Assembly (NCBI GenBank): GCA_011369465.1
Contig: DRQG01000084.1
Location: 1-40,901 of the forward strand
DNA length: 40,901 nt
Direction: 5' to 3'
Source of the DNA: Caldithrix abyssi
GTDB taxonomy: Bacteria > Calditrichota > Calditrichia > Calditrichales > Calditrichaceae
The position numbers were made by a program, and so were the translations under genes. Below, piece by piece: positions 2-35,300 of the stretch (its first letter is position 1; every line of letters starts with the position of its first letter). The notes under the pieces are model-generated. The model was not told the origin of the DNA. It saw only the letters and a list, made by a program, of their open reading frames with translations, and ran no database searches.

Positions 2-1564
2 GCGGAAGCCGTTGTACAGGGAAACGGTAAAATCGTATTTGTCGGCGACAAAGATGAAGCGTTAAAGTACTATCCCGATGCACGGAAATACAATCTCAAA
101 GGCCGCACCATGCTGCCGGCTTTTATCGACCCGCATTCCCATTTTATGTCGGCTCTGAGAATGGTGAACCAGGTCAATGTTGCTTCACCACCGATGGGAC
201 CCGCTAAAAGTATTGAAGACATAATGAATTTATTAGCAGATTTTAAGAAAAAAAAGAACATCAAGGATGGGGATTGGATCATCGGCTGGGGATATGACCA
301 GGATTTAATTAAAGAGAAACGGCACATCACCAAAAGGGATATCGATAAATATTTTCCCGACAATAAAGTGATGATTATCCATGTATCGATGCACGGCGCC
401 GTACTAAACTCCCGTGCGTTGGAATGGGCCGGTATCAACGCCCATACAAAAACGCCCGCGGGAGGTGTTATCGCCCGTTTCCCAAATTCTGAAGAACCGG
501 CCGGCCTGGTGATGGAGATGGCATTCATCCCCATTTTCGAAAAAATGCCGCAGCCTTCTGTGGATGAGATGATGAAGCTGATGAAACCGGCCCAAATGCT
601 GTATGCGCGTAACGGATATACTCAGGCCGTAGAAGGTTATTCCCATATTTCCGATATGGATTTACTCCTAAAGGCAGCCGCCGAACATAAGCTCTTTTTA
701 GACATCATATCGCTGCCCGGTTTTACCGAGATGGATAAGTGGTTGAACAACCCGAAATATAAATTCGGCGTTTATACCAACCATCTGAAATTCGGAGGCG
801 GTAAGTTTACGCTTGACGGTTCACCGCAGGGCAAGACGGCTTATATGTCCTCGCCCTATTTAACCGGCGGCCCGAACGGTGAGAAGAATTGGTACGGCAA
901 TACATCAATACCGAGAGACGAGCTGGCAAAAATGGCCAGGACGATGATTGACAACCATATTCAAATTAATTTTCATGCCAACGGCGATGCGGCGATTGAC
1001 GATGCTATTTATGCCATCGAGAAAGCGGGAATCACAGCAAAAGACGATAAACGGCCGATTATTATCCATTCGCAATTTCAACGCCTCGATCAATTGGAAA
1101 AATATGTAGAATTGGGCATCACCCCTTCCTATTTCACCAACCATGTGTATTTTTGGGGCGATGTGCACATTAAAAATGTAGGCGAAAAAAAGGCCTCGTT
1201 TATCAGTCCCTTAAAAACAGCACAGGCGCTGGGCATCATTTTTTCTAACCACACGGATTTCAATGTCACTCCGCTAAACCCTTTTTTCATTTTATGGACG
1301 GCTACCAACCGGATTACGCGCAGCGGTAAAGTTTTAGGCCCCAAAGAACGGATTGACACCTATACCGCTTTGCAAGGTTTAACCAGCGGCCCGGCCTATC
1401 AGTTTTTCGAAGAAAACAGAAAAGGCAAAATCAAAACGGGAATGCTGGCTGACTTTGTTATTCTTAAAAACAATCCTCTAAAACAAAACATATCCGATCT
1501 GAGAGACAATGAGGTCATCGAAACCATAAAAGAAGGAAAAACGATATTTGAAAATAAAAAGTAG
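2..1564 (+). CDS. YtcJ-type amidohydrolase, 5' truncated
   Basis: This is a metal-dependent hydrolase of the amidohydrolase superfamily, YtcJ / N-substituted formamide deformylase branch. The reading frame is open from base 2, so the gene starts before the window; the ATG at 110 is internal because the residues before it (GKIVFVGD..., then KGRTMLPAFIDPHSH) match the N-terminal beta-sandwich of the family. Metal ligands seen are the HSH pair in IDPHSH, the His in NFHANGDAAID, the His in IIHSQF, and the catalytic Asp in SNHTDF. The loop LDGSPQGKTAYMSSPY is typical of the family. Whether it is exported cannot be judged because the N-terminus is missing. It is the first of four paralogues in the window. 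The substrate cannot be named from sequence; family members hydrolyse amide, formamide or carbamate-like bonds. Confidence 0.9.
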   Translation, partial: AEAVVQGNGKIVFVGDKDEALKYYPDARKYNLKGRTMLPAFIDPHSHFMSALRMVNQVNVASPPMGPAKSIEDIMNLLADFKKKKNIKDGDWIIGWGYDQDLIKEKRHITKRDIDKYFPDNKVMIIHVSMHGAVLNSRALEWAGINAHTKTPAGGVIARFPNSEEPAGLVMEMAFIPIFEKMPQPSVDEMMKLMKPAQMLYARNGYTQAVEGYSHISDMDLLLKAAAEHKLFLDIISLPGFTEMDKWLNNPKYKFGVYTNHLKFGGGKFTLDGSPQGKTAYMSSPYLTGGPNGEKNWYGNTSIPRDELAKMARTMIDNHIQINFHANGDAAIDDAIYAIEKAGITAKDDKRPIIIHSQFQRLDQLEKYVELGITPSYFTNHVYFWGDVHIKNVGEKKASFISPLKTAQALGIIFSNHTDFNVTPLNPFFILWTATNRITRSGKVLGPKERIDTYTALQGLTSGPAYQFFEENRKGKIKTGMLADFVILKNNPLKQNISDLRDNEVIETIKEGKTIFENKK

Positions 1565-1641
1565 AGAAGTCCTTCATATCTGCTTCTCGTTCCAACCATT
1601 GGAAACACCATGTTAAAATGCTAAGATGAGGTACGAAGTTA

Positions 1642-2019
1642 ATGGATTCAACTAACAATAAACAAAATGCGATTGCATTTTATAAGATGGCCTATGAAGG
1701 CAAGCCGCGTAAAGCTGTCGAACTTTATGTTGGCGAAGAATACATTCAACACAACCCGTTAGTTGGTGATGGGAAAGAATCATTTATTGCCTATTTTGAA
1801 AAGATGGCAAAAGAATATCCCGAAAAAAGCATCGAATTTGTTCGAGCCGTGGCCGAAGGTAATTTAGTAGCCCTTCACACGCACCAAACCTGGCCAGGCG
1901 GAATCGAATACGTCACTATGGATTTTTTTCGATTTGACGAAAATGGAAAAGTGGTGGAACATTGGGATTCCATACAGGAGATTCCGAAAGAATCGGCTCA
2001 TAATAATCCGATGTACTAA
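1642..2019 (+). CDS. SnoaL-like / NTF2-fold protein
   Basis: This small 125-residue protein resembles the predicted SnoaL-like aldol-condensation family (NTF2-like alpha+beta cone fold). The conserved features seen are an N-terminal helix with NAIAFYKMAYEGKP, then YIQHNPLVGDG, and a C-terminal DFFRFDENGKVVEHWDSIQEIP, where the His/Trp/Asp line the pocket in relatives. There is no signal peptide, so it is probably cytoplasmic. It starts 77 bases after the amidohydrolase stop on the same strand, with a GAGG about 10 bases before the ATG, so cotranscription is plausible. Its reaction is unknown; many relatives are binding proteins, isomerases or cyclases. Confidence 0.8.
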   Translation: MDSTNNKQNAIAFYKMAYEGKPRKAVELYVGEEYIQHNPLVGDGKESFIAYFEKMAKEYPEKSIEFVRAVAEGNLVALHTHQTWPGGIEYVTMDFFRFDENGKVVEHWDSIQEIPKESAHNNPMY

Positions 2020-2160
2020 GAAAGCCATTTATTTAAGGAAAAACTATTTTAATCCCCAAAAGTCATATTTAATACAGGATTTTTGAATAAAGAAAAAACC
2101 GGGCTGATTAATTTTGCTGCCGCATAAAAGAGGATTCATGCAAATTAATGGAAAATTTGT

Positions 2161-3933
2161 TTACCCCCCATGAATCATTTTTCCCGCGGTGTTAAGAGCG
2201 TGTATAAAATCCGGAAGTAATTTCTGCGGAATATAACATTGTACATAAAAACGCATACGTTCGGGGAAATCCGCTTTTCGTCGGACAATCTCTTTATAGC
2301 TCTGGCGCGCTTCTTCTATTTTACCCAATTTCACCAACGCTACCGTACGCAGCAAAGGGTCCCAAAATAAGAATTCAAAATCCATTTTATCCACTTCCGC
2401 CAGGGCTTTGGCGTACTGCCCTTTACGAAAATAATCCAGATAATAGGCCAGATGAAAATAGCCCGGATAATAGGGATTTAGTTTCATGCCTTTTTTCATG
2501 TACTCCAGACCGCGCTCGAAGTGGCCCTGAATAACCATATCCCAGCCGCTTATGCTGACCAGATAGCCGTTGTTGGGATTGAGCGCAATGGCTTTTTCAT
2601 TCGATTTCATCGCTAAATCCGGTTTTCCCATTAACTGGTACATAAAGCCTTCCAAAGAACGGGCAAAAGGTTCCTCCGGATCGAGGCGTATGGCTCTACG
2701 GATACATTGAATTCCTTTACTAAAAGCGCTGTCTATTCCCGCAATACCCAGTGTATAGGCATTCAGATATAAATTGCCCAGCATGGCCCAGGCCAACGCA
2801 TTGTTCGGTTCGGTTTTAACCGCTTGCTGCAAGCTGATAAACGCCCGGTTGTACAGCTCCGGTGTAAGATAATAATCATAGGCCCTGAAAGTGGCTATGG
2901 CTTCAAACACACCGAGCTGCGTAGGCCGTTTGGATATAGAAGCCGAGGTCAGTTCCCGGGAAATAACCCCGTATCCCCCACCGATGCGGTTGACAATGTT
3001 CTTGGCTATTTCATCTTCTATGGAAAACAGATTGTTGACGGTCAACGTCCGTTCGAAACGGCTGCCCCAAATTTGTTGATTGGTATTTAAATTGAGCAGC
3101 TGCACATCCACACGTAACAGGTTGTTTATTTTTATGAAGCTCCCGGTCAGGGCGTAATCCACACCGAGTTTGCGAAGGGTTGTAAAAATATCCGTACCTT
3201 TGTCATCCATGCTGCGGGCCGAATAGTAAGAAATTACGACGAAATCTTTAAAGCGCGACAGACGGTTGCTTAAATTGGTAGCAAGACTGTGCATAAATGA
3301 TTCCAGCTGCGCATCCTGACTTAAATTTTTTAAAGGCAGAACAATGACGCTGGGTTTGTTATAAAGATTTCCCCGGGCACTGTTTTGAGAGGAGAGCAGA
3401 AGCCATCCCAAAAAGCCGAGAAACAAAACCGCTGTTCCTACAATGAGGATAATGAGTATTCTCCGGTTAAAAAAAGTCTTGGGAGCTGAGGTTGATTTTA
3501 CACTATTCTCTGTTTGTGTTTCAGTAGCGGATTCTTTGGCTCCGGAAAGCGCTTGTTCGCCTGAGGAAACGGATTCTGAAGGATAAAACTCCGGTTTGTA
3601 ACTTCCTTTGGAAATTTTTATTACAACAGGGTCTTGCGCTCCTTCGGTGTAATAATACATATCCAGCGCCCGGCGCAGCCTGCCGGCAAGAACGCGGATG
3701 AAAGGATCGAGCTGCGGATCAAAATCACTATCCCTGCCAAAGGCTTGTACGGCAATGGTATAAGCCTTTAGCTGGTCGCCGCGCCCGGCCAGAGTTTCAT
3801 CGATTACAAACTTAAAGAAGGTGGAAAGCTGTCGGGAGGCTTGGAAGCGTTCGCTATTCAGAATGCGCCTGGCCTGCTCTTCGATCGCCTCGTGCGGAAG
3901 TTCGGCCGCAGCATTTTCAGGCAATGAATTCAT
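2161..3933 (-). CDS. Membrane-anchored FlgO-like/TPR protein, putative regulator
   Basis: The 590-residue protein has four parts. Residues about 15-118 form an N-terminal domain with the pattern LKAYTIAVQAFGRDSDFDPQ followed by a RVLAGRLRRAL helix and KISKGSYKPEF; this module recurs at the front of bacterial proteins often labelled adenylate cyclase or TPR regulator and is suspected to be a DNA-binding or signalling domain. Residues about 159-180 are a single membrane helix. Residues about 192-330 are a FlgO/TolB-N-like domain (SVIVLPLKNLS, LGVDYALTGSFIK, QIWGSRFERTL). Residues about 350-590 are TPR-like helices (NNALAWAMLGNLYLNAY, PNNGYLVSISGWDMV). No cyclase catalytic domain is present. It is divergent from the 100-residue gene at 4079 and sits among the envelope hydrolase genes, so a sensing role for that locus is an inference. 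Confidence 0.7.
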   Translation of the reverse strand: MNSLPENAAAELPHEAIEEQARRILNSERFQASRQLSTFFKFVIDETLAGRGDQLKAYTIAVQAFGRDSDFDPQLDPFIRVLAGRLRRALDMYYYTEGAQDPVVIKISKGSYKPEFYPSESVSSGEQALSGAKESATETQTENSVKSTSAPKTFFNRRILIILIVGTAVLFLGFLGWLLLSSQNSARGNLYNKPSVIVLPLKNLSQDAQLESFMHSLATNLSNRLSRFKDFVVISYYSARSMDDKGTDIFTTLRKLGVDYALTGSFIKINNLLRVDVQLLNLNTNQQIWGSRFERTLTVNNLFSIEDEIAKNIVNRIGGGYGVISRELTSASISKRPTQLGVFEAIATFRAYDYYLTPELYNRAFISLQQAVKTEPNNALAWAMLGNLYLNAYTLGIAGIDSAFSKGIQCIRRAIRLDPEEPFARSLEGFMYQLMGKPDLAMKSNEKAIALNPNNGYLVSISGWDMVIQGHFERGLEYMKKGMKLNPYYPGYFHLAYYLDYFRKGQYAKALAEVDKMDFEFLFWDPLLRTVALVKLGKIEEARQSYKEIVRRKADFPERMRFYVQCYIPQKLLPDFIHALNTAGKMIHGG

Positions 3934-3976
3934 AACGAATCCACTGTTTTATATTCAGCATACGATACTTTCCCGT

Positions 3977-4004
3977 TTTAACTCACCGTATGATACAGTA
4001 TAAT
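3977..4004 (+). promoter_or_regulatory. Candidate promoter for the gene at 4079
   Basis: A perfect TATAAT lies at 3999-4004 in the divergent gap, about 75 bases before the start codon at 4079. The -35 element is weak: TTTAAC with a 16-base spacer, or TTTTAA with 17. The assignment rests mainly on the -10 box and the position, so it is tentative. Confidence 0.3.
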
Positions 4005-4078
4005 ACTTCCGTATTTTTATCGAAAGTCCTATTATAGAGCCAAAAATAAAACGCTTCAAAATTGTGTATTAAAGAAAA

Positions 4079-4381
4079 ATGTTAATTCAAGACGAACAAC
4101 AAATTTTAAATCGTATCAGAAATCATTTTCCGGAAGAGGCGAATACCATCGACCGTTTGTTCAAGGCTTCCGAACAGTTCAGAGAATTGTGCATTGACTA
4201 TTTGGACATTGGCCATATGCTGGAATACTGGAACAGTTCACAACAACTTCCCGCTCCCAATGTTTTAAAGGAATACCGGGCGCTTTTACAAGAACTGGAA
4301 AAAGAAATTAAGAGTACGGTTCAGGATTCGATTAATCCGAACTATCCAAACCGCTTCAACGATCTGGAAACAAGCGCTTAA
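4079..4381 (+). CDS. Small helical hypothetical protein
   Basis: I do not recognise this 100-residue protein. It is soluble, without signal peptide or membrane segment. The sequence is helix-rich and charged: an N-terminal stretch with QQILNRIRNHFPEEANTIDRL, a central LCIDYLDIGHMLEYW segment, and a C-terminal KEYRALLQELEKEIKST helix that could pair in a coiled coil. It is transcribed divergently from the FlgO-like/TPR protein and precedes the outer-membrane protein at 4497 by 115 bases. The AT-rich leader has only a weak purine stretch (AAAGAAAA) as ribosome binding site. The coding pattern and its position between genes support a real gene. Confidence 0.6.
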   Translation: MLIQDEQQILNRIRNHFPEEANTIDRLFKASEQFRELCIDYLDIGHMLEYWNSSQQLPAPNVLKEYRALLQELEKEIKSTVQDSINPNYPNRFNDLETSA

Positions 4382-4496
4382 TTCCCAGGTAAGTTAGAAT
4401 ATTCCATTATCAACGCACTACCTGTTTATATTTTTAAAATATAAGAAGGTAACTTAAACACTTCAACTAAAACAAATAACAAGGGAGGATTTTGTT

Positions 4497-5315
4497 ATGA
4501 ACCAATCCAGATTAACTTTTATTATGCTGCGGATCAAGCGACTGGGAACACCCATGTTCTTTTTTATACTTCTTTTGTTTTTTATCCGCACGGGCTGGAC
4601 GCAGGAAGGAGAAAAAAAGATAGATGCGTCCAAACCTACCAATTTATACACCCAGTTGAACAACGCCTTTGAAGTGGCCAAAAATGTTAATGGTAACTAT
4701 CTGTACGGTTATCGCGCCAGTTTTCAATTGGCCTCGGGCGATCAACATCATTTGGCTTTTGTCGAGATACCCCTTCTTTACAATGACCGCACATCCGCTT
4801 TTGGCTTATCCGATATCCGCGTGCGTTATTTCGGCATCACACATAAGGATTATTCAAAAACCTTCGGCGGTGTTTGGGCCGGGTCTATAGATATATTCGC
4901 GCCCACAGGAAAATTTGAAGACGGTTTGGGTACAGGAAGATGGATTGTGGCTCCCGGTCTCGTTACGGGAATCATTTTCAGTAAAAAATTTCAAACATTT
5001 CCGATTGTTTCATACCAGTATATGTCCAAACCAACGTCAAGTTCAATTCCTGAATCTCAGAAAAAAGTGCGGCACGGTATGACTTTTCAGGCAATTACCG
5101 TTTTAAATTTTAATACCTGGTTTATGTGGATTACGCCCATATATGTCATACCCGATCTGAGTGACAGCAACATCAAAGACAGATTTATTATCGAACTTAT
5201 TCCTTCATTGCCTGCGATGGGAGATAAATTCAAATACAGGCCTTCGGCATTTTTCAGATATGATTTTCGGAATGAATCCTTTCAGGCGCGTGTGGCTTTG
5301 GTGCTTTATTTATAA
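4497..5315 (+). CDS. Outer-membrane beta-barrel protein (Phenol_MetA_deg-like)
   Basis: The ATG follows a strong AGGGAGG about 8-9 bases upstream. The 272-residue product has a long N-terminal region with a hydrophobic core (about residues 19-34) ending near TGWTQ, which looks like a Sec signal. The remainder alternates polar and hydrophobic residues as in transmembrane beta strands and ends in a hydrophobic strand (ARVALVLYL), as outer-membrane proteins do. The segment with FGLSDIRVRYFGI and IFAPTGKFEDGLGTGRW resembles the meta-pathway phenol degradation / transporter-like barrel family. Its cargo is unknown. It opens a plus-strand run that leads into the DcaP-like porin and three amidohydrolases. 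Confidence 0.65.
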   Translation: MNQSRLTFIMLRIKRLGTPMFFFILLLFFIRTGWTQEGEKKIDASKPTNLYTQLNNAFEVAKNVNGNYLYGYRASFQLASGDQHHLAFVEIPLLYNDRTSAFGLSDIRVRYFGITHKDYSKTFGGVWAGSIDIFAPTGKFEDGLGTGRWIVAPGLVTGIIFSKKFQTFPIVSYQYMSKPTSSSIPESQKKVRHGMTFQAITVLNFNTWFMWITPIYVIPDLSDSNIKDRFIIELIPSLPAMGDKFKYRPSAFFRYDFRNESFQARVALVLYL

Positions 5316-5374
5316 GGCTTAAATAAGTCCAATCTATGAAAGAGCTAAAGCTTCCGGTTAATAAAGATATTTAT

Positions 5375-5416
5375 TTCCATCATTTCTTAGCCTCTTAGGG
5401 CCCTTTGTGGAATCAT
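5375..5416. repeat. Short intergenic repeat-like text
   Basis: Within the 170-base gap between the two barrel genes lies a stretch containing CTTAGCCTCTTAGGGCCC and TTTGTGG. It resembles the pyrimidine-rich phrases at 18264-18298 and 27117-27148 in this window, which look like members of a dispersed short repeat family. Similarity was judged by eye only. Confidence 0.3.
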
Positions 5417-5485
5417 AAAGAGCGACTAAGATATATTTGGGTAAATTTCGAAATAAATCTTTAGAAGGAGTTTAATTTTACCGTC

Positions 5486-6754
5486 ATGGCTCGCCATAGG
5501 ATTATGATTCTGACCATGCTTGCATTTAGTGGTATGCTTTTTTCTCAAAATGCTGAGAAAACGGCCTCAGTGGATACCGCCGGTATAGCCGTTATTATGA
5601 AGGAATATACAGGTTCTGCTGCGGAAAGCGATACCATTGTTGCCCAGGATGTCCACCCGCAGGATTCTCCGGCTGACCGCGGTTTTCTAATCATTTCGGC
5701 CGATCAGAAGGCGGAACTGCGCATCCGCGGTTCGATCCGCGTGAACGGGGCCTATGATTTCAACGGGCTGCAGAATCAGAATTTCTTTTCCACGGTGGAT
5801 ATCCCGGTAGGCGATGCGAACAAAACCGAGCCGCGTTTCTTTATGGGCGTCAATCAAACCCGCATGGGTATCGAAGCCAAGCGGGCCACGCCCATCGGCG
5901 ATGTTTTTATTCGCGTGGAAATGGATTTCTTAGGCGTGGGAGGCAATGCTCTGCGGCTGCGCCATGCTTATGGTCAAACCGAGGTGTTTCTGGCCGGGCA
6001 GACCTGGACCACCTTTAGTGATGTGTCTTCATTTCCATTGACGGTGGAATTATTAGGTCCGAACAGCGCCATTATCGAACGTACCGTGCAATTCCGCTAC
6101 TTCCGGGATGCTTCGGAAGATTTCCGCTGGTCGGTGGCCGTCGAGTCGCCGCGGCCGGATATTGGCAAGCCGGATACGCTGCAGATAGAGCCGGCCTTCC
6201 AGAGTTTCCCGGATATCGCCGGGCGTTTGCGCAAATACGGCGACTGGGGGCATGTGCAGCTGGCGGCCATCCTGCGCAGCATTGTCATCAAGTCCGTCAA
6301 TAATGAACGGGACGGACTTATCGGGTATGGCGGCCTGCTGACCGGTAAAATCAATTTTACCGAACGCAATATCCTGCTTTATCAGGCGGTGTACGGCAAG
6401 GCCATATCCGGTTTTATCAAGGCCCTTTCGGGCAAAGGACTGGATGTGGTGTACAATCCGACCACCCGGGAATTTGAAACTGTTGCCTCGGTAGGAGGAT
6501 ATGTATCTTACCGCCGCATCTGGAGACCGCATTTGTCATCCTATTTTACGGCAGGACTGGTGAAAGTGGTCAATAAAGATTTTCAACCGGGCGACGCATT
6601 TTCCTTAAGCCGCTATATTTCTGTGGATTTGTTTTGGGAAGCGTCGCCGGGCGTGCGCCTGGGTGTGGAATATTCCTGGGGACAACGGGTGAATAAAAAC
6701 GATGAATCCGGCACGGCAAACCGGCTTTCTTCCATTGTGTATTATGATTTCTAA
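5486..6754 (+). CDS. DcaP-like trimeric outer-membrane porin
   Basis: The product has 422 residues with a signal peptide at about 1-20 (hydrophobic MILTMLAFSGMLFS). A polar linker follows to about residue 75, then a barrel that opens with ELRIRGSIRVNGAYDF. The segments FMGVNQTRMGIEAKR, VFIRVEMDFLG, LRLRHAYGQTEVFLAGQTWTTFSD and VELLGPNS are characteristic of the DcaP-like family, trimeric porins that take up small organic anions and related compounds. An AGAAGGAG lies about 15 bases before the ATG, a longer spacing than usual, but no nearer in-frame start is present. It ends 38 bases before the first exported amidohydrolase, so it is a likely entry route for that enzyme's substrate; this link is inferred from context. 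Confidence 0.8.
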   Translation: MARHRIMILTMLAFSGMLFSQNAEKTASVDTAGIAVIMKEYTGSAAESDTIVAQDVHPQDSPADRGFLIISADQKAELRIRGSIRVNGAYDFNGLQNQNFFSTVDIPVGDANKTEPRFFMGVNQTRMGIEAKRATPIGDVFIRVEMDFLGVGGNALRLRHAYGQTEVFLAGQTWTTFSDVSSFPLTVELLGPNSAIIERTVQFRYFRDASEDFRWSVAVESPRPDIGKPDTLQIEPAFQSFPDIAGRLRKYGDWGHVQLAAILRSIVIKSVNNERDGLIGYGGLLTGKINFTERNILLYQAVYGKAISGFIKALSGKGLDVVYNPTTREFETVASVGGYVSYRRIWRPHLSSYFTAGLVKVVNKDFQPGDAFSLSRYISVDLFWEASPGVRLGVEYSWGQRVNKNDESGTANRLSSIVYYDF

Positions 6755-6792
6755 TGTAATGTAAAATTATCCAAAATAATAAGGGAGGTGTT

Positions 6793-8517
6793 ATGAGGAA
6801 AATACGACAAAAAAGAATCCTTGCCGTTGTTGTTACGGCCGTCGTCGTCTCTTTTTTGTTGATTGTGAGCAGTTGTACGGTTAAAAACCGGCAGGCGGCG
6901 ACCATTTACAAAAACGGTACAATTCTCACCATGAATGACGCCCGGCCGACCGCCGAGGCCGTAGCGGTACGGGATGGTAAAATTGTGGCTGTCGGCGCCC
7001 TGGCCGAAGTACAGAAGGCGGCCGGCGGAAATGCCAAAACGGTCGATTTGAACGGCAAAACCCTGATGCCCGGCTTTATCGACAGCCACAGCCATCTCAG
7101 TTTGATGGGCACGAAGCTGGCTCTGGCAAACATGAGCAACCCGCCTGCCGGCCCGATAACCAGCATCGAAGATATCAAAAACGAATTCCGCAAATGGATC
7201 AAGGAAAACAATCTTAAACCGGGCGATCTGGTTGCCGGCTGGGGGTACGACCACACACAGCTTAAAGAACACCGCCATCCCACCAGAGACGATTTGGATG
7301 AAATCAGTACGGAACATCCCATTGTGTTGATTCATTTCTCAACGCACCAGGTCGTTTTAAATTCACTGGCTTTGGAAATGGTCGGCTACAATGAGAACAC
7401 ACCCGATCCCGAAGGAGGAAGAATACTGCGTTATCCCGGTACTAAGAAGCCCAATGGCATCGCACAGGAAACGGCTTCCATTCCTATCAAATTAAAAGTG
7501 TTCGGCGCCACTTATGAAGAAAAGTTGAAAAGAATTACCAAAGCGCTGGATAAGTATATGGAAGAAGGATTTACCACGGCTCAGGACGCCGCCCTTCTGG
7601 ATACGGCCTGGCTGGCAGCCTATCGGCATTTGGGCAGGGACGGTGTTCTGAAAATCGATGTAGCTGCCATGCCATTCTTTAAGACGGCCGATATGCTCAT
7701 GAAAAATTTTGAGCAGGACAAACAATATCATAATCATTTTCGTCTGGCGGGCGTCAAGCTGATACTTGACGGCGGTTCGCCCGGTCGTTCGGCCTATTTA
7801 CGCGAACCGTACTATGTGCAGGAGCCCGGAGAAAAGAATTTCAGGGGCGTGCCTCTGTTTCCCAATCAGGATGATATAGACAGAATGGTAACTTCTTATT
7901 ATGAAAAAGGCTGGCCGACCTTTATCCACGCCCTCGGTGACGCTGCCGTCGACCAGGCCGTTCATGCCGTACGGACGGCTGAGAATAAGTTTCCGGGCAA
8001 AGACCGACGTACACAGATTATTCACGCTCAGTTATTCTGGCCGGATCAAATGGACGCCCTGAAGCAATTGGGCGCAACGGTCACCTTTCAGATGACACAT
8101 GTCTATTATTTCGGTGATTTTCATATCAAACAGACCTTCGGACCGGAACGCGCCGAACATCTCTGCCCGATGAAAACGGCAATGGATCACGGTTTAAACG
8201 TCACCATTCATCACGATGCGCCCGTACATCCCCCGGATCAATTGTTCATCATCTGGTCTGCCGTAAACAGAGTGACACGCAGCGGCCATGTTCTCGGACC
8301 TGACGAGCGGGTTTCGGTTATGGATGCGCTTAAAGCCAGCACCATAAACGCTGCCTACCAGATATTTGAAGAAGATTTAAAAGGTTCCATCGAACCCGGA
8401 AAACTGGCCGATTTTGTAGTACTTTCGGACAATCCGATGACGATTGACCCGATGAAAATAAAAGACATTGAGGTGCTGGAGACGATTAAGGAAGGGGAAA
8501 CGGTATTCAAAAGGTAA
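6793..8517 (+). CDS. Lipoprotein YtcJ-type amidohydrolase
   Basis: A strong AAGGGAGG precedes the ATG. The N-terminus has a basic start, a hydrophobic core and a lipobox VSSC (Cys28), so the enzyme is probably lipid-anchored and extracytoplasmic. The amidohydrolase fold follows: beta-sandwich start (IYKNGTILTMNDARPTAEAV), metal pair H99/H101 in IDSHSH, D326 in LDGGSPGRSAY, H379 in FIHALGDAAVD, H411 in IIHAQL and catalytic D475 in IHHDAPVHPP. The C-terminal sandwich with GSIEPGKLADFVVLSDNP is intact. The length of 574 residues is normal for the family. It is closest in motifs to the truncated copy at the window start and directly follows the DcaP-like porin, which suggests import and hydrolysis of a shared substrate. 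Confidence 0.92.
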   Translation: MRKIRQKRILAVVVTAVVVSFLLIVSSCTVKNRQAATIYKNGTILTMNDARPTAEAVAVRDGKIVAVGALAEVQKAAGGNAKTVDLNGKTLMPGFIDSHSHLSLMGTKLALANMSNPPAGPITSIEDIKNEFRKWIKENNLKPGDLVAGWGYDHTQLKEHRHPTRDDLDEISTEHPIVLIHFSTHQVVLNSLALEMVGYNENTPDPEGGRILRYPGTKKPNGIAQETASIPIKLKVFGATYEEKLKRITKALDKYMEEGFTTAQDAALLDTAWLAAYRHLGRDGVLKIDVAAMPFFKTADMLMKNFEQDKQYHNHFRLAGVKLILDGGSPGRSAYLREPYYVQEPGEKNFRGVPLFPNQDDIDRMVTSYYEKGWPTFIHALGDAAVDQAVHAVRTAENKFPGKDRRTQIIHAQLFWPDQMDALKQLGATVTFQMTHVYYFGDFHIKQTFGPERAEHLCPMKTAMDHGLNVTIHHDAPVHPPDQLFIIWSAVNRVTRSGHVLGPDERVSVMDALKASTINAAYQIFEEDLKGSIEPGKLADFVVLSDNPMTIDPMKIKDIEVLETIKEGETVFKR

Positions 8518-8610
8518 TGATGCCTTAAACTATTATACGATGACCGCTTGTTTGTCCGAAAGTTAATAGACCAGACGGCGGTTTCACAGAAATGATTAAA
8601 AGGAACTATC

Positions 8611-10362
8611 ATGAAAACAAAATATTCAAAAATGATGACGGCCCTATTCGGTATTATACTCATTGCCGTTTTTGGGATGACGGTACATGCACATGCTCAA
8701 AGTGCACCGACCGTTGTTTATACGGCAAAAAAAATTATCACTATGGAACAGTCTCTTCCTGAAGCGAAAGCGGTGGCCGTAAGGGATGGAAAAATCATCG
8801 CTGTCGGCAACCTGGAAGAGGTAAAAAATAAGCTTGGCCGGCAGGAATATGAGCTGAACGATCGTTTTAAGGACAAGGTAATAATGCCGGGATTTATCGA
8901 CAACCATGTCCATCCCATGCTGGTGGGCGGTTTCCTTTTGCAGACGAAATTCATCACCCCCTTCGACTGGAACCTGCCGAGCGGACAGGTAAAAGGCGTA
9001 AAAGGGCGTGAAGCTTATCTCGCCCGTCTTAGGGAAATGGAAGCAAAAATAGAGGATCCGCAGGAATGGTTGTGGACCTGGGGCTATCAAAGAAATTTTC
9101 ATGGCGACCTTTCCCGGAATGATCTGGATGCCATCACCTCAACCCGCCCGGTCATTGTTTGGGGACGTTCTTTCCACGAGATAGTGCTTAATACACCGGC
9201 GTTGAAAGCGATTGGTTTTCTCGGTAAGGATGATCCTCAGCATGAGCAGATAGACTGGCATAAAGGTCTGGCTATGGAAGCCGGTTTCAAACAGTACATT
9301 TTACCAAAACTGGTTGCCATACTTATGAAACCGGAGAGGCTTTTGCCTACTCTGAAGACCATAGGACAGGTTTTGCACATGGGGGGCGTTACCACCGCTG
9401 TGGATATGGCAGCAGCTGCAACCGATGTTGACAAGGAATGGCAGGCGCAGCAGGCGGTTTACGAAAAAGACGATACCCCTTTCCGCATCTATTATATACC
9501 GTTAAGCAGCAGACTCATCGCCAACCGTTATGGCGGTTTTGAAAAGGCGGCCGATTTTTTTGAAACGCTGCCGCAACGGAATACCCATCACATGAAATGG
9601 CTGCACAAACAGGTGAAATTTCTGGCCGACGGCGCTTTCTTTTCCCAGCTTATGCAAATGAAAGACGGCTATACAGACGGCCACAAAGGCGAATGGATTA
9701 TGCCTCCCGATGAATTGAAGGAAGCGGGCGAGGTTTTCTGGAAGCGCGATTACCAGATTCATACACATGTCAATGGCGACCTGGGTATGGATGTGGTGCT
9801 GGATATGTTAAATAATCTGGAAAAAGAATATCCACGCCAGGATCACCGTTTCGTCCTGCATCACGTCGGTTATTTTACCAAAGACCAGGCCAAACGCATT
9901 GCCGGTTTGGGCGCTGTAGTTTCTGCGCAGCCCTATTATCTTTACACCATGGGAGAAATATATGCCGAACAAGGCCTGGGGCCCGACCGCGCATACCACA
10001 TGCTGCGTCTGAAATCCCTGGTCGATAACGGCATCCGTTTATCCCTGCATTCGGATTTCCCCATGGCACCGGCCGAACCGCTGAAGCTGGCCTGGGTGGC
10101 GGCGAACCGGCTTTCCGCAAGCGGTAAGGTGCTGGCGCCTGAAGAGCGCATCAGCGTTGATGCGGCGCTGCGTGCCATTACCATCGACGCCGCTTATGCC
10201 GTTCAATTGGAAAATTCGATTGGTAGTATCGCACCGGGCAAGATAGCTGATTTCACTGTGCTGGAGCAGGACCCCTATGAAGTACAGCCCGAAGCGCTGA
10301 AAGACGTACCGGTTTGGGGAACAGTTTTCGAGGGCAAAGTATTCCCGATTAAAACGAAGTGA
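8611..10362 (+). CDS. Secreted YtcJ-type amidohydrolase, divergent paralogue
   Basis: The 583-residue enzyme has a Sec signal peptide (residues 1-29, ending AHA before Gln30) and AAAAGGAA upstream of the ATG. Metal and catalytic residues are H99/H101 (IDNHVH), H386 (HVNGD), H417 (VLHHVGY) and D482 (LHSDFPMAP). The family loop that normally reads DG[ST]xxGxxAY...PY is replaced by ADGAFFSQLMQMKDGY (D340), and the region before it (FKQYILPKL..., KWLHKQVKF) is also different. The active site should therefore work, but the substrate pocket probably differs from the other paralogues. It begins 93 bases after the lipoprotein paralogue on the same strand. Confidence 0.9.
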   Translation: MKTKYSKMMTALFGIILIAVFGMTVHAHAQSAPTVVYTAKKIITMEQSLPEAKAVAVRDGKIIAVGNLEEVKNKLGRQEYELNDRFKDKVIMPGFIDNHVHPMLVGGFLLQTKFITPFDWNLPSGQVKGVKGREAYLARLREMEAKIEDPQEWLWTWGYQRNFHGDLSRNDLDAITSTRPVIVWGRSFHEIVLNTPALKAIGFLGKDDPQHEQIDWHKGLAMEAGFKQYILPKLVAILMKPERLLPTLKTIGQVLHMGGVTTAVDMAAAATDVDKEWQAQQAVYEKDDTPFRIYYIPLSSRLIANRYGGFEKAADFFETLPQRNTHHMKWLHKQVKFLADGAFFSQLMQMKDGYTDGHKGEWIMPPDELKEAGEVFWKRDYQIHTHVNGDLGMDVVLDMLNNLEKEYPRQDHRFVLHHVGYFTKDQAKRIAGLGAVVSAQPYYLYTMGEIYAEQGLGPDRAYHMLRLKSLVDNGIRLSLHSDFPMAPAEPLKLAWVAANRLSASGKVLAPEERISVDAALRAITIDAAYAVQLENSIGSIAPGKIADFTVLEQDPYEVQPEALKDVPVWGTVFEGKVFPIKTK

Positions 10363-10447
10363 CAATATAAATTTTGCGTGAAACAATTCAAAGAAGCAGA
10401 ATAAAAAAATGAACGCAGAATTCATTGATTACGGAAAGGAGGAACTC

Positions 10448-10993
10448 ATGTTAAAAGGTTTTCATTTCATTGCTATCATTCTTTTATCTCTTCTCATAAG
10501 CTGTTCATCGGTTTCGGTGGTCACAGATTACGATCATGCCGAAGACTTTAGTACCTACAAAACATTCAGGATGTATGAAGGGAAGACCATTCCCGGAGAT
10601 GAACTGGCCAAAGACCCGCTGGTAAAAAAGCGTTTTGAAGATGCCGTTAAAGAGGAACTGATTAAAAAAGGATTTACCTACAAAGAAAGCGGCGATGTGG
10701 ATTTTATGGTTGTTATCCACGCCGGCGTGAAGGAAAAAGTAAGGGTGACCAACTGGGGTCGCTACGGATGGTACGATCCCTGGTGGGGCCCATACGGAGG
10801 CCGGGTGGATGTGAGCCAATACGAAGAAGGTACCCTGGTCATCGACATTGTGACGGTATCGCAGAAAGAATTGGCCTGGCGCGGCATGGGCACCAGCGTG
10901 ATCGGTTCTAATAAATACGGCGGCGATGAAGAAGGCTTGAAAAATATTCGCGAAATCGTTTCCAAAATTCTGGCCGGTTTCCCGCCAAAATAA
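10448..10993 (+). CDS. DUF4136 lipoprotein
   Basis: I placed the start at 10448, preceded by a strong AAGGAGG, rather than at the in-frame ATG at 10409. From there the protein begins with a lipoprotein signal, MLKGFHFIAIILLSLLISC, and has 181 residues. The mature part matches the DUF4136 pattern: VVTDYDHAEDFSTYKTFRMYEG near the start, then LVKKRFEDAVKEELIKKGFTY, DVDFMVVIHAGVKEK and a final EGTLVIDIVTVSQKELAWRGMG. A Trp/Tyr/Gly/Pro-rich stretch (WGRYGWYDPWWGPYGG) sits mid-protein. The function of the family is unknown; it is an envelope lipoprotein. It lies between two exported amidohydrolases on the same strand. Confidence 0.85.
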   Translation: MLKGFHFIAIILLSLLISCSSVSVVTDYDHAEDFSTYKTFRMYEGKTIPGDELAKDPLVKKRFEDAVKEELIKKGFTYKESGDVDFMVVIHAGVKEKVRVTNWGRYGWYDPWWGPYGGRVDVSQYEEGTLVIDIVTVSQKELAWRGMGTSVIGSNKYGGDEEGLKNIREIVSKILAGFPPK

Positions 10994-11047
10994 ATTCCGG
11001 TTTATGACAGAATTTTGAATAAATCAATAGAGAGAGGATGATGTAAG

Positions 11048-12751
11048 ATGAACAAGTTTAAATTCACCTTGCTGTTACCGGTAATTTTGCCGCTGCTGAT
11101 GGGCTTTGCACCGCAGGATAAAAAATCCGGGGAGGCGGCCAGTCATGTAGTCATCATTGCCAATGCCAATATTCATACCATGAACGCCAAACAACCAAAG
11201 GCCACAGCGATGGCATTCAAAGACGGGAAAATCATCGCCGTAGGCGACCTGGCCGCGGTTAAAAAAGCCGCCGGTAAGGATTACGAATATTTCGATCTGG
11301 GCGGCAAAACGGTAGTGCCCGGTTTCATCGAATCACACGACCACATGGTGCAGTTCGGCGGCTCGTTAAACTATCTGGATATTACGCCATTTGTTTGCCC
11401 CACGTTAAAGGAAGCTCTGGAAAAACTGAAAAAATACGGCGAGCCGGATGAAACCGGTTGGATATACGCCTGGGCGGCTGACCAGACCTTATATAAGGAA
11501 AAGCGCGGACCCACGAGACAGGAACTGGATGAATTGTTTCCGGATACGCCGGTATTTATTTACCACATGAGCGGTCATGCTGCCTATGTGAACAGCAAAG
11601 CTCTGGAATTGGCCGGCATTACCAAAGATACGCCCAACCCCAAAGGCGGCGAGTTTGTAAAAGATGAAAACGGCGAGCTTACCGGTTTTCTGAAAGGCAT
11701 GCCCGCCTGGAGACAGGTGGGGAATTTCCCCAAGGTGGATAAGGAAACCACCGTAAATTCGGCCAGATATTACGCCGAACGCGGCTATACCACAACTTCC
11801 GAATTTGCCTTGATGAATCCCGTTTTGTTGGAAATGATCAAGGAAGTTACCGAAGAACCGGACTTTCCGGTAAGAATTTACGGCGGACTGTTCAGTTCTA
11901 TGCCCGGGTTGGAAGAAGTGGCGCCGCAGGCCAAAAACTATGAAACCGATCTGTTCAAAATAAAATTTATCAAGACCTGGACGGACGGTTCCACCCAGGG
12001 CGGCACCGGTTATTTTACCAAACCGTATTACAAACTGGATTCGGATACCAAAAAAGGCGCCCGGGGAACGCAGGAGGATTTTAACCGGCAGGTTACCCAA
12101 ATGCTTAAATGGGGATTTGCCCCGGCTATCCACTCCAACGGCGATGCGGCCATGGATCTGGCGCTAAACGCCATCGAATATGCACGCAAAAAAACCGGCC
12201 GCAGCGATATCCGTCCCCATCTCATTCATTGCCAGTATGTGCGCGAGGACCAGTTTGACCGCATCAAAAAAATGGGCAATATCGGTATGACATTTTTCTC
12301 CGCGCATGTTTATTACTGGGGCGATATGCACCGCGATCTGCTGTTGGGCCCGGAAAGGGCGGCCAATATCGCCGCGGTGGACGAGGCCATCAAGCGCGGC
12401 ATTCCCTACGGAATTCACAATGACCCGCCGGTAACCAAACCGGATGCGCTGGAATCGATGTGGATTGCGGTCAATCGTCTCACTTCTTCCGGTAAAGAGT
12501 TGGGGCCGCAGCATAAAATTACACCCGAGCAGGCGCTGTACGGGTACACGCTCGGCGCGGCCAGGGTTTTTGGCATCGAGGATATAGTCGGTTCCCTGGA
12601 AAAGGGTAAATATGCGGATTTCGTGGTATTGGAAAAAGATCCTTTGCAGGTTGATCCGATGAAGTTGAAAGATATCCGGATTGACGCCACGGTGATGGGT
12701 GGCAAAATAACTTTTTTAAGAAATGAACTTTACTCAGGAGAATTGCCGTAA
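11048..12751 (+). CDS. Exported YtcJ-type amidohydrolase
   Basis: The 567-residue enzyme has a hydrophobic N-terminal signal (residues about 5-21) without a lipobox Cys, so it is probably periplasmic or secreted. GAGAGAGGATG precedes the ATG. Key residues are H97/H99 (IESHDH), D313 in TDGSTQGGTGYFTKPY, H362 in AIHSNGDAAMD, H394 in LIHCQY and D459 in IHNDPPVTKP. The C-terminal domain (GSLEKGKYADFVVLEKDP) is complete. It starts 54 bases after the DUF4136 lipoprotein gene and ends 21 bases before the exporter gene, so it is likely in the same transcript. The exact substrate is unknown. Confidence 0.92.
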   Translation: MNKFKFTLLLPVILPLLMGFAPQDKKSGEAASHVVIIANANIHTMNAKQPKATAMAFKDGKIIAVGDLAAVKKAAGKDYEYFDLGGKTVVPGFIESHDHMVQFGGSLNYLDITPFVCPTLKEALEKLKKYGEPDETGWIYAWAADQTLYKEKRGPTRQELDELFPDTPVFIYHMSGHAAYVNSKALELAGITKDTPNPKGGEFVKDENGELTGFLKGMPAWRQVGNFPKVDKETTVNSARYYAERGYTTTSEFALMNPVLLEMIKEVTEEPDFPVRIYGGLFSSMPGLEEVAPQAKNYETDLFKIKFIKTWTDGSTQGGTGYFTKPYYKLDSDTKKGARGTQEDFNRQVTQMLKWGFAPAIHSNGDAAMDLALNAIEYARKKTGRSDIRPHLIHCQYVREDQFDRIKKMGNIGMTFFSAHVYYWGDMHRDLLLGPERAANIAAVDEAIKRGIPYGIHNDPPVTKPDALESMWIAVNRLTSSGKELGPQHKITPEQALYGYTLGAARVFGIEDIVGSLEKGKYADFVVLEKDPLQVDPMKLKDIRIDATVMGGKITFLRNELYSGELP

Positions 12752-12772
12752 AAGGGGCAAGGAAAGCTCAAT

Positions 12773-13489
12773 ATGATTGAACTTCTTGCTATACTTGCAC
12801 CGATTGCTCTCATCGATAGTTTGTCGGTTGTCCCTATTGCCAGCGTACCTCTGGTCATGCTGCTTGGCGGCCGTCGGCCGGTGGCCGGTTCGCTGGCATT
12901 TTTGGCCGGTATCTTTTTCACCTATTTTCCTTTCGGTGTGCTTCTGCTGTTCGGACTGGACGCCGTTTTCGACAGGCTGGCAAACCATTTTGTGGCCTGG
13001 TGGAGCCGGGAACCGGATATTGGCGAGGTGATCCTACAGATTATTATCGGTCTGCTTATGGTGGTGTACGGCGGCAAATTATGGAACCGGCGGGGCAAAA
13101 TACAACAGGAAACGGAGCAAAGCGCTATCACGCCGGCTCAGGCTTTTTCCATGGCCGCTTTGATTAATATAACCGGTATGTGGGGCGCCCTGCCCTATTT
13201 TGCCGCCGTCGCACAGATCCTGAAGGCCGATTTTTCAGCAAGCGGAATGCTAATCGCATTACTCTTTTACAACCTGGTGTTTGCCCTGCCGCTTTCCGCG
13301 TTCCTTTTCCTGCGCCTTCTTATAGGCGAGCGCTCGCAGCGCTGGTTCGAATCGATAAATGTCTTTCTCGCCCGTTGGGGCGGCCGCATATTGCTGATTG
13401 TGCTTATCGGGTTGGGTCTGCTGCTGATTGCGGACGGTACAGGCTGGCTGTTCGGTTGGCCTTTGATTATGCCGGGTTTTGAAGGATGA
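12773..13489 (+). CDS. GAP/LysE-like multi-spanning membrane transporter
   Basis: The 238-residue protein has about six hydrophobic segments: IELLAILAPIALIDSLSVVP, GSLAFLAGIFFTYFPFGVLLLF, VILQIIIGLLMVVYGG, a pair in the third quarter (ITGMWGALPYFAAVA, LIALLFYNLVFALPLSAFLF) and a C-terminal ILLIVLIGLGLLLIADG. The N-terminal P-x-x-x-x-D-S pattern and the inverted-repeat layout fit the GAP / Sap (sulfolipid-1-addressing) branch of the LysE superfamily, which exports small molecules or lipids. A GGAAAG precedes the ATG and the gene starts 21 bases after the amidohydrolase stop. It may move a product or substrate of the hydrolase pathway, but that is only inferred from position. Confidence 0.7.
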   Translation: MIELLAILAPIALIDSLSVVPIASVPLVMLLGGRRPVAGSLAFLAGIFFTYFPFGVLLLFGLDAVFDRLANHFVAWWSREPDIGEVILQIIIGLLMVVYGGKLWNRRGKIQQETEQSAITPAQAFSMAALINITGMWGALPYFAAVAQILKADFSASGMLIALLFYNLVFALPLSAFLFLRLLIGERSQRWFESINVFLARWGGRILLIVLIGLGLLLIADGTGWLFGWPLIMPGFEG

Positions 13490-13544
13490 TGATTTTATTC
13501 ATTTGGTTATAACGGAATGTTTCATATACAAAAAGGTTAAAGCA

Positions 13545-14885
13545 ATGCGTCATTCAATAGCTTATTCTATCTTATTCTTTTTCCTAATAAATTTTACAGC
13601 GGCTCAACCCGCAAATCAGGTGATCTATCTGGGCGGCGGCAGCGTGGATGGTATTTCCGATAACGGCAAGATCGTTGTCGGCGGATTCGGCGACCTCGGT
13701 TATTATTGGACGTTCGGAACCGGCCGGGTGGAACTGGGCTGGTGTCGTCCCTACGATGTAACCAACGATACTATGATTGTGGGCGAATTCTTAGACCCCA
13801 ACACCTTAACTCCCGAAGGCGACACCTGTTTTGTGGCCGGGTACTGGAAAAACGGACAGTGGCACAGCATCGGTTCGCTGTTGGATGAACCCTTTCATCC
13901 CGATTGGTACACCGATGCCTTTGGGGTTTCATCGGACGGCAGCACCATTGTCGGTATGCAGTGGTGGGATTACGATCGTGTGGAAGCCTACAAATGGACC
14001 CAGACCGACAGTTTCACCCTGCTGGGTATGAACGGCGGACAGGGCAGCAAGGCGCTGGGTGTAAACGAAGACGGATCGATTATTGTAGGTTGGGACGAAA
14101 ATAACAATTTTGAACGCCGGGCTTTTAAATGGAATCCCGATTCATTTTACCTGGGAAGCCTGGCTACGCCTCCTTCCGAAGTGGGGGAAGCTCACGATAT
14201 CAGTCCGAACGGTATGTATATCGTAGGCGGTTCCGCTGACAAAGCCTTTGTGTGGACCGAATCCGGCGGCATGGTAGAGCTGAATCCCGGCAGCACCAAA
14301 GGTTCCTATGCCATCGATGTGTCGGACAACAAAGTCATTGTGGGAACGTACGAAAGCGGCATATTGCATAACGATGGTTTCGTTTATACCGATCAATATG
14401 GTTTTGAGCTGATTGATGACTTTTTCGCCAGAAATAACATCGCTTACGATCTGGATTGGGCGTATTTTGATTATTGCCAGGCCGTTTCGCGCGATGGTAA
14501 AGTGATTGCCGGTCGGGGCTACCGGAGTACCACCGAACCGGCTTACGAAGCCTGGGTAGTGTATCTGGAGGACCCCGCGGCTTTGGACAAACCGGCAAAC
14601 ACCGTTAAGGGCTATTATTTGGAACAGAACTATCCTAATCCGTTTAATCCATCCACAACCATTGCTTTTTCTATTCCGGTATCCGCTCAAATCCGCCTTA
14701 CCGTTTATGATTTGCAGGGACGTGAAGTTCGGACGCTTTTTAACGGTAATTTAGCGGCAGGAAGACACGAAGTGCGCTGGGACGGACAGGATGCATCGGG
14801 CCGACCGGCGGCATCCGGCCTGTATCTTTATACTCTGCAAGCAGCTTCTTTTAAAAAGACCGGTAAAATGCTGCTCGTCCGCTAA
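13545..14885 (+). CDS. Secreted HAF-repeat protein with C-terminal sorting tail
   Basis: I chose the ATG at 13545 (446 residues) because it gives a clean signal peptide ending near FTAAQP; the in-frame ATG at 13479 would overlap the previous gene and put 22 residues in front of it. The body contains at least four repeats of the HAF type, each with the form GxSxDGxxIVG...AxxWT: VDGISDNGKIVVG, AFGVSSDGSTIVG, ALGVNEDGSIIVG and AHDISPNGMYIVGG. The last 90 residues form a sorting domain: QNYPNPFNPSTTIAFSIP, LTVYDLQGREVRTL, ASGLYLYTL and a final KTGKMLLVR. Such tails direct secretion or surface anchoring in FCB bacteria. The repeats suggest a beta-propeller-like surface protein of unknown ligand. 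Confidence 0.8.
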   Translation: MRHSIAYSILFFFLINFTAAQPANQVIYLGGGSVDGISDNGKIVVGGFGDLGYYWTFGTGRVELGWCRPYDVTNDTMIVGEFLDPNTLTPEGDTCFVAGYWKNGQWHSIGSLLDEPFHPDWYTDAFGVSSDGSTIVGMQWWDYDRVEAYKWTQTDSFTLLGMNGGQGSKALGVNEDGSIIVGWDENNNFERRAFKWNPDSFYLGSLATPPSEVGEAHDISPNGMYIVGGSADKAFVWTESGGMVELNPGSTKGSYAIDVSDNKVIVGTYESGILHNDGFVYTDQYGFELIDDFFARNNIAYDLDWAYFDYCQAVSRDGKVIAGRGYRSTTEPAYEAWVVYLEDPAALDKPANTVKGYYLEQNYPNPFNPSTTIAFSIPVSAQIRLTVYDLQGREVRTLFNGNLAAGRHEVRWDGQDASGRPAASGLYLYTLQAASFKKTGKMLLVR

Positions 14886-21390: not shown

Positions 21391-21500
21391 TTCTTATCTT
21401 TCCCCTTGCCGGGGCAGGAATTAGCACCTTTTTCTCATTTCTGCGAGAAAGGTTGCTAAGGCATCTTCGGGCCTGTTCCCTCCGCCTTTCTGGATAAGAA
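21391..21500 (-). promoter_or_regulatory. SAM-I (S-box) riboswitch
   Basis: The minus strand shows the S-box aptamer core. P1 is an 8-bp perfect helix, TTCTTATC (21500-21493) with GATAAGAA (21398-21391). Between its strands come GGCGGAGGGA, ACAGGCCCGAAGATGCC, TTAGCAACC, an AT-rich P3 hairpin (CCTTTCTCGCAGAAATGAGAAAAAGG region) and AAGGTGCTAATTCC followed by a P4 hairpin (TGCCCCGGCAAGGGG). These match the conserved S-box segments (GAGGGA, GGCCC, GCAACC, GGTGCTAATTCC). With SAM bound, P1 forms and the downstream terminator should fold, stopping metY expression. Confidence 0.96.
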
Positions 21501-34202: not shown

Positions 34203-35300
34203 TTACTGCTGAAGCAATGCTATCTTTTTGTCCTTTATCGCTTCCAAAAGATAGGCCAGGGCTTCCGTTTCGCGCATTTCGGAAAGCAGACGGCGTAGTT
34301 TGTTGATCTGTTTCAGTTCATCGGGGCTCAGCAACAACTCTTCTTTACGGGTTCCGGACTCGTTCACATTTATGGCCGGGAAGAGACGTCGTTCCGCGCA
34401 AGCTTTGGACAGTACCAGATCCAGATTGCCCGTACCTTTGAATTCCTGAAAGATGACTTCGTCCATTCGGCTGCCCGTATCCACCAGAATAGAAGCGATG
34501 ATGGTTAATGAACCGCCGTCCTCAATGTTGCGTGCGGCGCCAAAAAAACGTCGCGGCCAGTCTAATGCGTTAGCGCCCAGTCCTCCGGAAAGCGTGCGGC
34601 TGAAGCTGTCGGTCTCTTTATTAAATGCCCGCCCCATACGGGTAAGCGAATCGATCAGCACCAGAACGTCGCCGCCCGATTCCGCCCGGCGCATGGCCGC
34701 ATTGAGCGTGAGCCGGGTGATGCGCAGATGGCTGCGCGCGTCTTCATCGGCGCTGGAAGAAAGAACCTGTACCCGTTCGAAACTGCGCTTAAAATCGGTT
34801 ACCTCTTCGGGACGTTCATCCACCAGCAGAACCAGCACCTCCACCTCGGGATGATTCACTTCCACCGCTTTGGCAATGTGCTGCAAGATGGTGGTTTTGC
34901 CGGCTTTCGGCGGCGAGATAATCAATCCGCGGGTACCTTTGCCCACAGGGACGATCAAATCCAGAACATTGCCGGTTAAATCATCTTCGCCCAACGACAT
35001 ACGCAATCGTTCATCAGGGCTGATACTGGTGCGCAATTTCAATTCTTTGGTTTTGACAAGGGCCTCTGCGGATAAATCGTTCACCCGTTCAATTTTTTTT
35101 AACTGCGGCTTTTTGTTTTGCCCTTCATAAGTGGCTTCGGCTAAGCCTGCTACAAAATGGCCTTCCCTCAGGTTGTATTGACGGATCAAATTCGCCGGCA
35201 CATAGGTATCGCTGTGCGTCGGCCGGAAATTGTTTTCTATACAGCGTAAAAAGCCAAAACCCTTATCGTATAATTCGAGATAACCCTTAACGGGTAACAT
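34203..35300 (-). CDS. rho: Transcription termination factor Rho, short form
   Basis: Rho is the hexameric RNA helicase that ends transcription. The 365 residues begin directly with the cold-shock RNA-binding domain (GYLELYDKGFGFLR; DTYVPANLIRQYNLREGHFVAG), followed by the RecA-like motor with Walker A ISPPKAGKTTILQ (about 128-140), VLLVDERPEEVTDF, the Walker B region DVLVLIDSLTRMGRAFN and SGGLGANALDWPRRFFGAARN. The helical Rho_N domain of longer homologues (about 419 residues in E. coli) is absent; an in-frame TGA 11 codons upstream shows it has not simply been missed. CAGGAG precedes the ATG. It lies downstream of the aminopeptidase gene, 262 bases away. Confidence 0.96.
   Translation of the reverse strand: MLPVKGYLELYDKGFGFLRCIENNFRPTHSDTYVPANLIRQYNLREGHFVAGLAEATYEGQNKKPQLKKIERVNDLSAEALVKTKELKLRTSISPDERLRMSLGEDDLTGNVLDLIVPVGKGTRGLIISPPKAGKTTILQHIAKAVEVNHPEVEVLVLLVDERPEEVTDFKRSFERVQVLSSSADEDARSHLRITRLTLNAAMRRAESGGDVLVLIDSLTRMGRAFNKETDSFSRTLSGGLGANALDWPRRFFGAARNIEDGGSLTIIASILVDTGSRMDEVIFQEFKGTGNLDLVLSKACAERRLFPAINVNESGTRKEELLLSPDELKQINKLRRLLSEMRETEALAYLLEAIKDKKIALLQQ

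Follow-up and report, generated by a model that had tools for sequence, protein, structure and literature searches.

A contig of 40,901 nucleotides from Caldithrix abyssi (GenBank assembly GCA_011369465.1, contig DRQG01000084.1), referred to here as the window, carries four genes for YtcJ-type amidohydrolases (AH1 to AH4; Pfam family PF07969, Amidohydro_3) within 12.8 kb, together with genes for two putative outer-membrane pores. The window is the entire contig, the genome consisting of 4.31 Mb in 161 contigs. We consider the chances about even that this region is a cassette for hydrolysing amphiphilic N-acyl conjugates outside the cytoplasm. In these, an amide would link a bulky or hydrophobic acyl group to a small amine, for instance taurine or an amino acid. 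The families are known ones, in a gene combination for which no description was found in the literature searched. The region contains the following features:

2..1564 (+): AH1, PF07969 hydrolase, N-terminus cut by the contig start, pocket S-Q-N-H (Pfam, ligand and pocket residues)
1642..2019 (+): SnoaL-like protein (Pfam PF12680)
2161..3933 (-): divergent tetratricopeptide repeat (TPR) protein with an N-terminal domain and, by inspection, one transmembrane segment; possible regulator (Pfam TPR, weak NCBIfam HilA-like match)
4497..5315 (+): outer-membrane barrel, predicted COG4313-type channel of about 12 strands (AlphaFold, Foldseek, homologues beside AH genes in other phyla)
5486..6754 (+): DcaP-family porin (PF19577)
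6793..8517 (+): AH2, lipoprotein PF07969 hydrolase, altered pocket S-P-L-H (Pfam, ligands, lipobox)
8611..10362 (+): AH3, PF07969 hydrolase of a separate clade, Sec-like N-terminus, pocket S-F-N-Y (Pfam, tree, pocket residues)
10448..10993 (+): DUF4136 lipoprotein, longest open reading frame from 10409 (PF13590, E 2.2e-37)
11048..12751 (+): AH4, PF07969 hydrolase, deep branch, Sec-like N-terminus, pocket S-Q-N-H (Pfam, tree, pocket residues)
12773..13489 (+): PF11139 (SfLAP/GAP) inner-membrane protein, possible exporter (PF11139, E 9.2e-25)
13545..14885 (+): HAF-repeat protein with a C-terminal domain of type IX secretion system (T9SS)/FlgD_ig type, end of the co-directional run (profile matches)

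The hydrolases and their arrangement

A preliminary description of this DNA, made from its sequence alone, had placed four YtcJ-type hydrolases within 13 kb, and profile searches bear this out. Amidohydro_3 E values are 1.4e-93, 4.9e-107, 2.3e-57 and 1.1e-87 for AH1 to AH4, respectively, with scores of 196-360 bits versus a curated cut-off of 29.7, and the match reaches the C-terminus. Three copies are complete (567-583 amino acids, aa) and AH1 is partial (520 aa). All six metal ligands, namely HxH, a carboxylated Lys, two later His residues and Asp (HHKHHD), are intact in the four copies, as had been noted before for the HxH, later His and Asp residues of the complete ones. The complete copies had also been described as exported; by inspection only, AH2 possesses a lipobox (IVSSC), while AH3 and AH4 have Sec-like N-termini. 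AH1 lacks its N-terminus at the contig edge, and with it any export signal that it may have. Among related copies, a simple motif count showed export signals to be present in most diderm sequences and absent in twenty-one of twenty-two from Bacillota, which fits an envelope role.

Elsewhere in the genome, only two further full-length, strongly scoring PF07969 copies were identified, both on other contigs. Three more amidohydrolase-type frames (515-533 aa, weak PF07969 matches) are located on contig C35 of the same genome (G000; approximately 3084-10441, minus strand) and are perhaps a second array. An AH3-like lipoprotein of a Persicobacter plasmid (L164, 8866-10635) has, by alignment, lost four of the six metal ligands and is possibly a pseudoenzyme.

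The genes from 4497 to 14885 are co-directional, with intergenic gaps of 21-170 b, and most are preceded by a Shine-Dalgarno-like sequence. Both pore genes are located directly upstream of AH2, and the PF11139 gene starts 21 b after AH4. Cotranscription from 4.4 to 14.9 kb had been put forward as a check. This stretch agrees with the co-directional run; AH1 lies apart, separated from the AH2-AH4 run by the SnoaL gene, the divergent TPR gene and a gap of 563 b. Promoter and terminator motif counts over the region are at chance level, with operon calling no better than chance, and cotranscription is therefore unproven.

Pocket residues and neighbours as clues to the substrate

BwBSH1 of Bilophila wadsworthia, a PF07969 enzyme that is secreted, cleaves bile salts conjugated with taurine and, less well, other N-acyl taurines, and it has been proposed that Ser194, Gln381, Asn443 and His544 form its site for the taurine sulfonate (PMC13081902, a 2026 preprint). 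When placed by their distance from the metal ligands (SxH 84 residues after HxH; K+8; H+2; D-39, or 38 in AH1), the corresponding positions read SQNH in AH1 and AH4, SPLH in AH2 and SFNY in AH3. The Ser, Gln, Asn and His are each kept in 95-97 of 98 sequences on the AH1/2/4 side, and SQNH is found in all twenty AH1/2-type rows of a later sample. Gln is lost in only one other AH2 relative, the third member of a Bacteroidota array (L089). The resident YtcJ/COG1574 hydrolases of other Calditrichota and PDB 3icj share the family and metal site with the window copies, but the residents form a separate clade, and G and I (20/20 resident rows, and 3icj) stand at the second and third pocket positions, where AH1 and AH4 have Q and N.

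The window enzymes are similar to the metalloBSHs (BwBSH1/2) in family, export, metal ligands and co-localised copies, and AH1 and AH4 possibly also in the Ser/Gln/Asn/His site, as placed by spacing. However, BwBSH1 consists of 945 aa with an extra C-terminal domain, whereas the window enzymes are of about 570 aa, and the metalloBSHs have a type II secretion system alongside where the window enzymes have porins. AH1 and AH4 were not classified as metalloBSHs, as they lack this C-terminal domain and any such activity would be a prediction. UacY of Clostridioides difficile, another PF07969 protein, described as D-aminoacylase-like, was set aside as a model.

Genes beside relatives of these enzymes provide a second clue. 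CBAH-family (choloylglycine-type) amidases are located 18-38 b from AH genes in four loci (L124, L198, L203 and L204), and KshA-type steroid oxygenases occur with CoA ligases beside AH2-type genes in Sphingomonadales. M20 hydrolases are further neighbours that fit such conjugates. In the bsd I cluster of Caenibius, a cholate-induced amidohydrolase has been proposed to cleave bile-salt conjugates (PMC12882949). The bile-salt clusters of Sphingomonadaceae resemble the window in containing an amidohydrolase, but the window has no steroid genes. Together, pocket residues and neighbours of relatives indicate amides of the N-acyl amino acid or taurine type, and it is from the pocket and gene context that we infer the substrate. 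Of the substrates suggested earlier (amides, carbamates or formamides), amides are thereby favoured, while nothing was found that speaks for the other two. A carbamate or formamide pathway with NfdA-like deformylases appears highly improbable: NfdA belongs to the same Pfam family (PMC13081902), but none of the neighbours examined, either in the window or beside relatives, derives from isonitrile, formamide or carbamate pathways.

Some neighbours bear on another explanation. M20 hydrolases, M29, M81, subtilase and M1 peptidases and amino acid permeases were identified beside relatives, and DcaP genes elsewhere adjoin a signal-bearing glutaminase (genome G030) or form part of a consecutive set of barrel, DcaP and M20 hydrolase (Persicobacter plasmid). 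Such surroundings would suit the degradation of N-acyl amino acids or peptide-derived amides by aminoacylase- or dipeptidase-like enzymes of a protein-degrading bacterium, with no link to lipid or steroid conjugates. We regard this explanation as unlikely, given that COG4313 and FadL-like channels indicate hydrophobic compounds and that CBAH and KshA are also among the neighbours. SusC/SusD with an amino acid permease, and OprB, were also seen beside relatives.

Pores beside the hydrolases and their recurrence

The second barrel of the preliminary description (272 aa) is predicted to fold like a COG4313 channel. Its AlphaFold model, built from a nine-row alignment (pLDDT 74), has about 12 strands, and among solved structures it comes nearest to FapF and to 4rl8, a COG4313 channel (Foldseek; for 4rl8, E 8.8e-5 and TM 0.59). 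The model falls within the definition of COG4313 channels as 12-stranded barrels of 270-320 aa, and it resembles members of this group (Pput2725, 4rl8; SphA, TcpY) in size, fold and position beside catabolic genes. It differs from them in sequence, no Pfam match having been found for it, PF13557 included; in Sphingobacterium (L076), a barrel located next to an AH2-type gene does match that profile. Uptake of hydrophobic molecules has been proposed for COG4313 channels, among which SphA (sphingosine) is a named member (PMC4493636).

The DcaP-like porin, DUF4136 lipoprotein and exporter recognized earlier are matched by PF19577, PF13590 and PF11139, respectively. For the porin, the match (E 1.5e-27) covers profile positions 62-410 of 410. 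DcaP porins are characterised as trimers passing di- and tricarboxylates. Acinetobacter requires DcaP3 to grow on these acids (PMC12338516); the window porin is similar to Acinetobacter DcaP porins by its family match, but is distant from them and has amide hydrolases rather than dicarboxylate genes as neighbours. It is approximately 25% identical to plasmid homologues, nothing was found for it among the viral contigs searched, and DcaP occurs in only three of forty Calditrichota genomes.

Recurrence of these gene pairs was assessed in a first sample of 92 AH loci from other genomes and a second of 20 Planctomycetota and Pseudomonadota loci picked by AH2 similarity alone. In the first, the window barrel as sole query gave three matches and barrel profiles gave eight, all at no more than 1.5 kb from an AH gene, although four of the eight had seeded the profiles. 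The second yielded four barrels, every one located 31-97 b from an AH gene, with none in the remaining flanking sequence. Four independent loci would show proximity within 200 b by chance with a probability of about 1e-6; because L210 and L212 are closely related, the true figure is weaker.

The hydrolases also recur beside each other. The order AH3-barrel-AH2 was found in L067 and L211, and AH3 adjoins AH2 or AH1 types in Aquitalea, Caulobacter-like, Shewanella, Ensifer and Planctomycetota loci. One of the latter (L198 4222-9215, genome G668) is a tight run of AH3-type, CBAH amidase and AH1-type genes with gaps of less than 50 b, and its AH3-type copy is the closest AH3 relative seen (48% identity). 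The L089 array, from a metagenome-assembled genome of Sphingobacteriales (Bacteroidota), has three lipoprotein copies in tandem. A barrel gene separates the first from the second, a FadL-like protein is encoded upstream, and the array likewise mixes subfamilies. These linkages across phyla, and the two pore genes upstream of AH2, support the part of the preliminary description that proposed a dedicated envelope pathway, but not its inclusion of the DUF4136 lipoprotein.

COG0523-like GTP-binding proteins, which could be metal chaperones, adjoin AH3-type or related amidohydrolases on plasmids, at the following positions:

L141 10638-11525: COG0523-like GTP-binding protein
L143 10635-11495: COG0523-like GTP-binding protein
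L163 10644-11699: COG0523-like GTP-binding protein
L142 2182-3171: COG0523-like GTP-binding protein

Ancestry of the array and its possible function

AH1, AH3 and AH4 are 31-40% identical to AH2, which is nearer to them than to any copy in forty Calditrichota genomes. In a tree with relatives from many phyla, the four window copies nevertheless fall in separate clades, and the resident Calditrichota copies form a clade of their own. AH1 pairs with a Cetobacterium copy (49% identity; a Planctomycetota copy shares 47%), AH2 is placed in a large mixed-phylum clade, AH3 groups within a mostly proteobacterial clade and AH4 is a deep branch. A single clade of AH1, AH2 and AH4 was rejected by the approximately unbiased (AU) test (p 2e-5), ruling out local tandem duplication for these three. 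The copies had been described earlier as four paralogues of one family, with a paralogue tree as the means of checking; the tree does not support one locally expanded set. As the copies fall in separate clades with relatives in several phyla, the array was assembled out of subfamilies that already existed, horizontal acquisition being the simplest route. No tRNA or long-repeat traces of insertion were found at the locus, and GC content and third-position GC (GC3) of the block resemble the rest of the contig.

Conservation of gene order had also been put forward as a check, a lack of synteny in all relatives counting as refutation. It was absent within Calditrichota, where no other genome showed the array, but parts of it recur outside the phylum as described above, so that the refuting condition holds inside the phylum only. 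Only the genes for aspartate kinase (AspK), a MetX-like hydrolase and a Cys/Met pyridoxal phosphate (PLP) enzyme, on the same contig, are syntenic with a genome of the same family (G008; 54-77% identity). The contig is therefore not a stray. The region past AspK in G008 carries none of the window's genes. The Cys/Met PLP enzyme is preceded by a SAM-I riboswitch (RF00162, 90 bits; 21391-21500, minus strand), and the MetX-like hydrolase and aspartate kinase downstream complete an ordinary methionine gene set.

Alternatively, independently acquired scavenging hydrolases with unrelated substrates and no joint function may have gathered here by chance. Separate clades, a full gene order seen in no other genome and a promoter and terminator signal not above chance would all agree with this, as would the rarity of arrays: among 1136 genomes of three phyla there were 44 carriers, only one with adjacent copies, when the best 3-4 candidates per genome were scored. 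Set against these are the co-directional genes with their short gaps, the linkage of AH3 with AH2/AH1 and of AH with barrel genes in other phyla, and a second array, L089, which also mixes subfamilies and includes one pocket-altered copy. On this balance we regard a chance gathering as rather doubtful.

Several observations weigh against a cassette for N-acyl conjugates. The pocket was mapped by spacing and not by alignment with BwBSH1, and no assayed enzyme of these exact subfamilies was found in the literature searched. Genes for steroid or taurine catabolism are absent from the window, and no match to Xsc in the genome exceeded the cut-off, a result that is uninformative on taurine use. Furthermore, DcaP was seen beside AH genes only in the window, approximately 80-90% of relatives are without such a barrel alongside, and many have unrelated neighbours.

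If the cassette does act on such conjugates, these would cross the outer membrane via the COG4313-type channel (4497-5315) and the DcaP porin (5486-6754). Lipid-anchored AH2, periplasmic AH3 and AH4 and probably AH1 would then cleave the amide as binuclear metal hydrolases. AH1 and AH4 may prefer an anionic amine head held by the Ser-Gln-Asn-His site, while AH2 and AH3, having different pockets, may accept other heads, so that together they would cover a set of conjugates. Uptake and use of the products would follow, with one of them perhaps exported by the PF11139 protein.

Of the remaining genes, those for the DUF4136 and TPR proteins are doubtful members of the cassette. The DUF4136 lipoprotein is probably not specific to it: the family occurs in twelve of the forty Calditrichota genomes, and tandem DUF4136 lipoprotein genes on contig C23 of the same genome (53540-54744, minus strand) are 63% and 56% identical to the window copy. 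It was dropped as a member for these reasons. The membrane TPR protein, earlier suggested to sense substrate, matches TPR families and has one transmembrane segment by inspection, but it is a regulator candidate only, and its paralogues in the genome are no more than partial. Relatives of neither the PF11139 nor the TPR protein were seen near related enzymes in other genomes. Elsewhere in the window, a protein of 365 aa with Rho-type RNA-binding and ATPase domains (34203-35300, minus strand) is shorter than usual for Rho, and T9SS-type C-terminal sorting domains were found in two more proteins (24686-27082 and 32341-34164).

The occurrence of enzyme-plus-pore pairs in distant phyla suggests a little-described feeding on amide-linked compounds, for example amino acids or taurine conjugated with fatty or steroid groups. 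More tentatively, hydrolases with the SQNH pocket of AH1 and AH4 may form a metal-dependent class that spans phyla and acts on conjugates of taurine or amino acids; in diderms its members would be exported, and COG4313 channels and CBAH amidases would often accompany them. The array in the window would then be a multi-specificity version in which co-located members (AH2 and AH3, like the third L089 copy) have diverged in the amine-binding pocket. PF07969 comprises more than 100,000 mostly uncharacterised proteins (PMC13081902), and the four-residue signature with its recurrent channel and second-amidase context offers, for a large branch of exported members of this family, a substrate class that can be tested, beyond bile-salt hydrolysis in the gut. 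If this is true, environmental bacteria of many phyla would hold metal-dependent hydrolases of taurine and amino-acid conjugates that are now annotated merely as 'amidohydrolase'.

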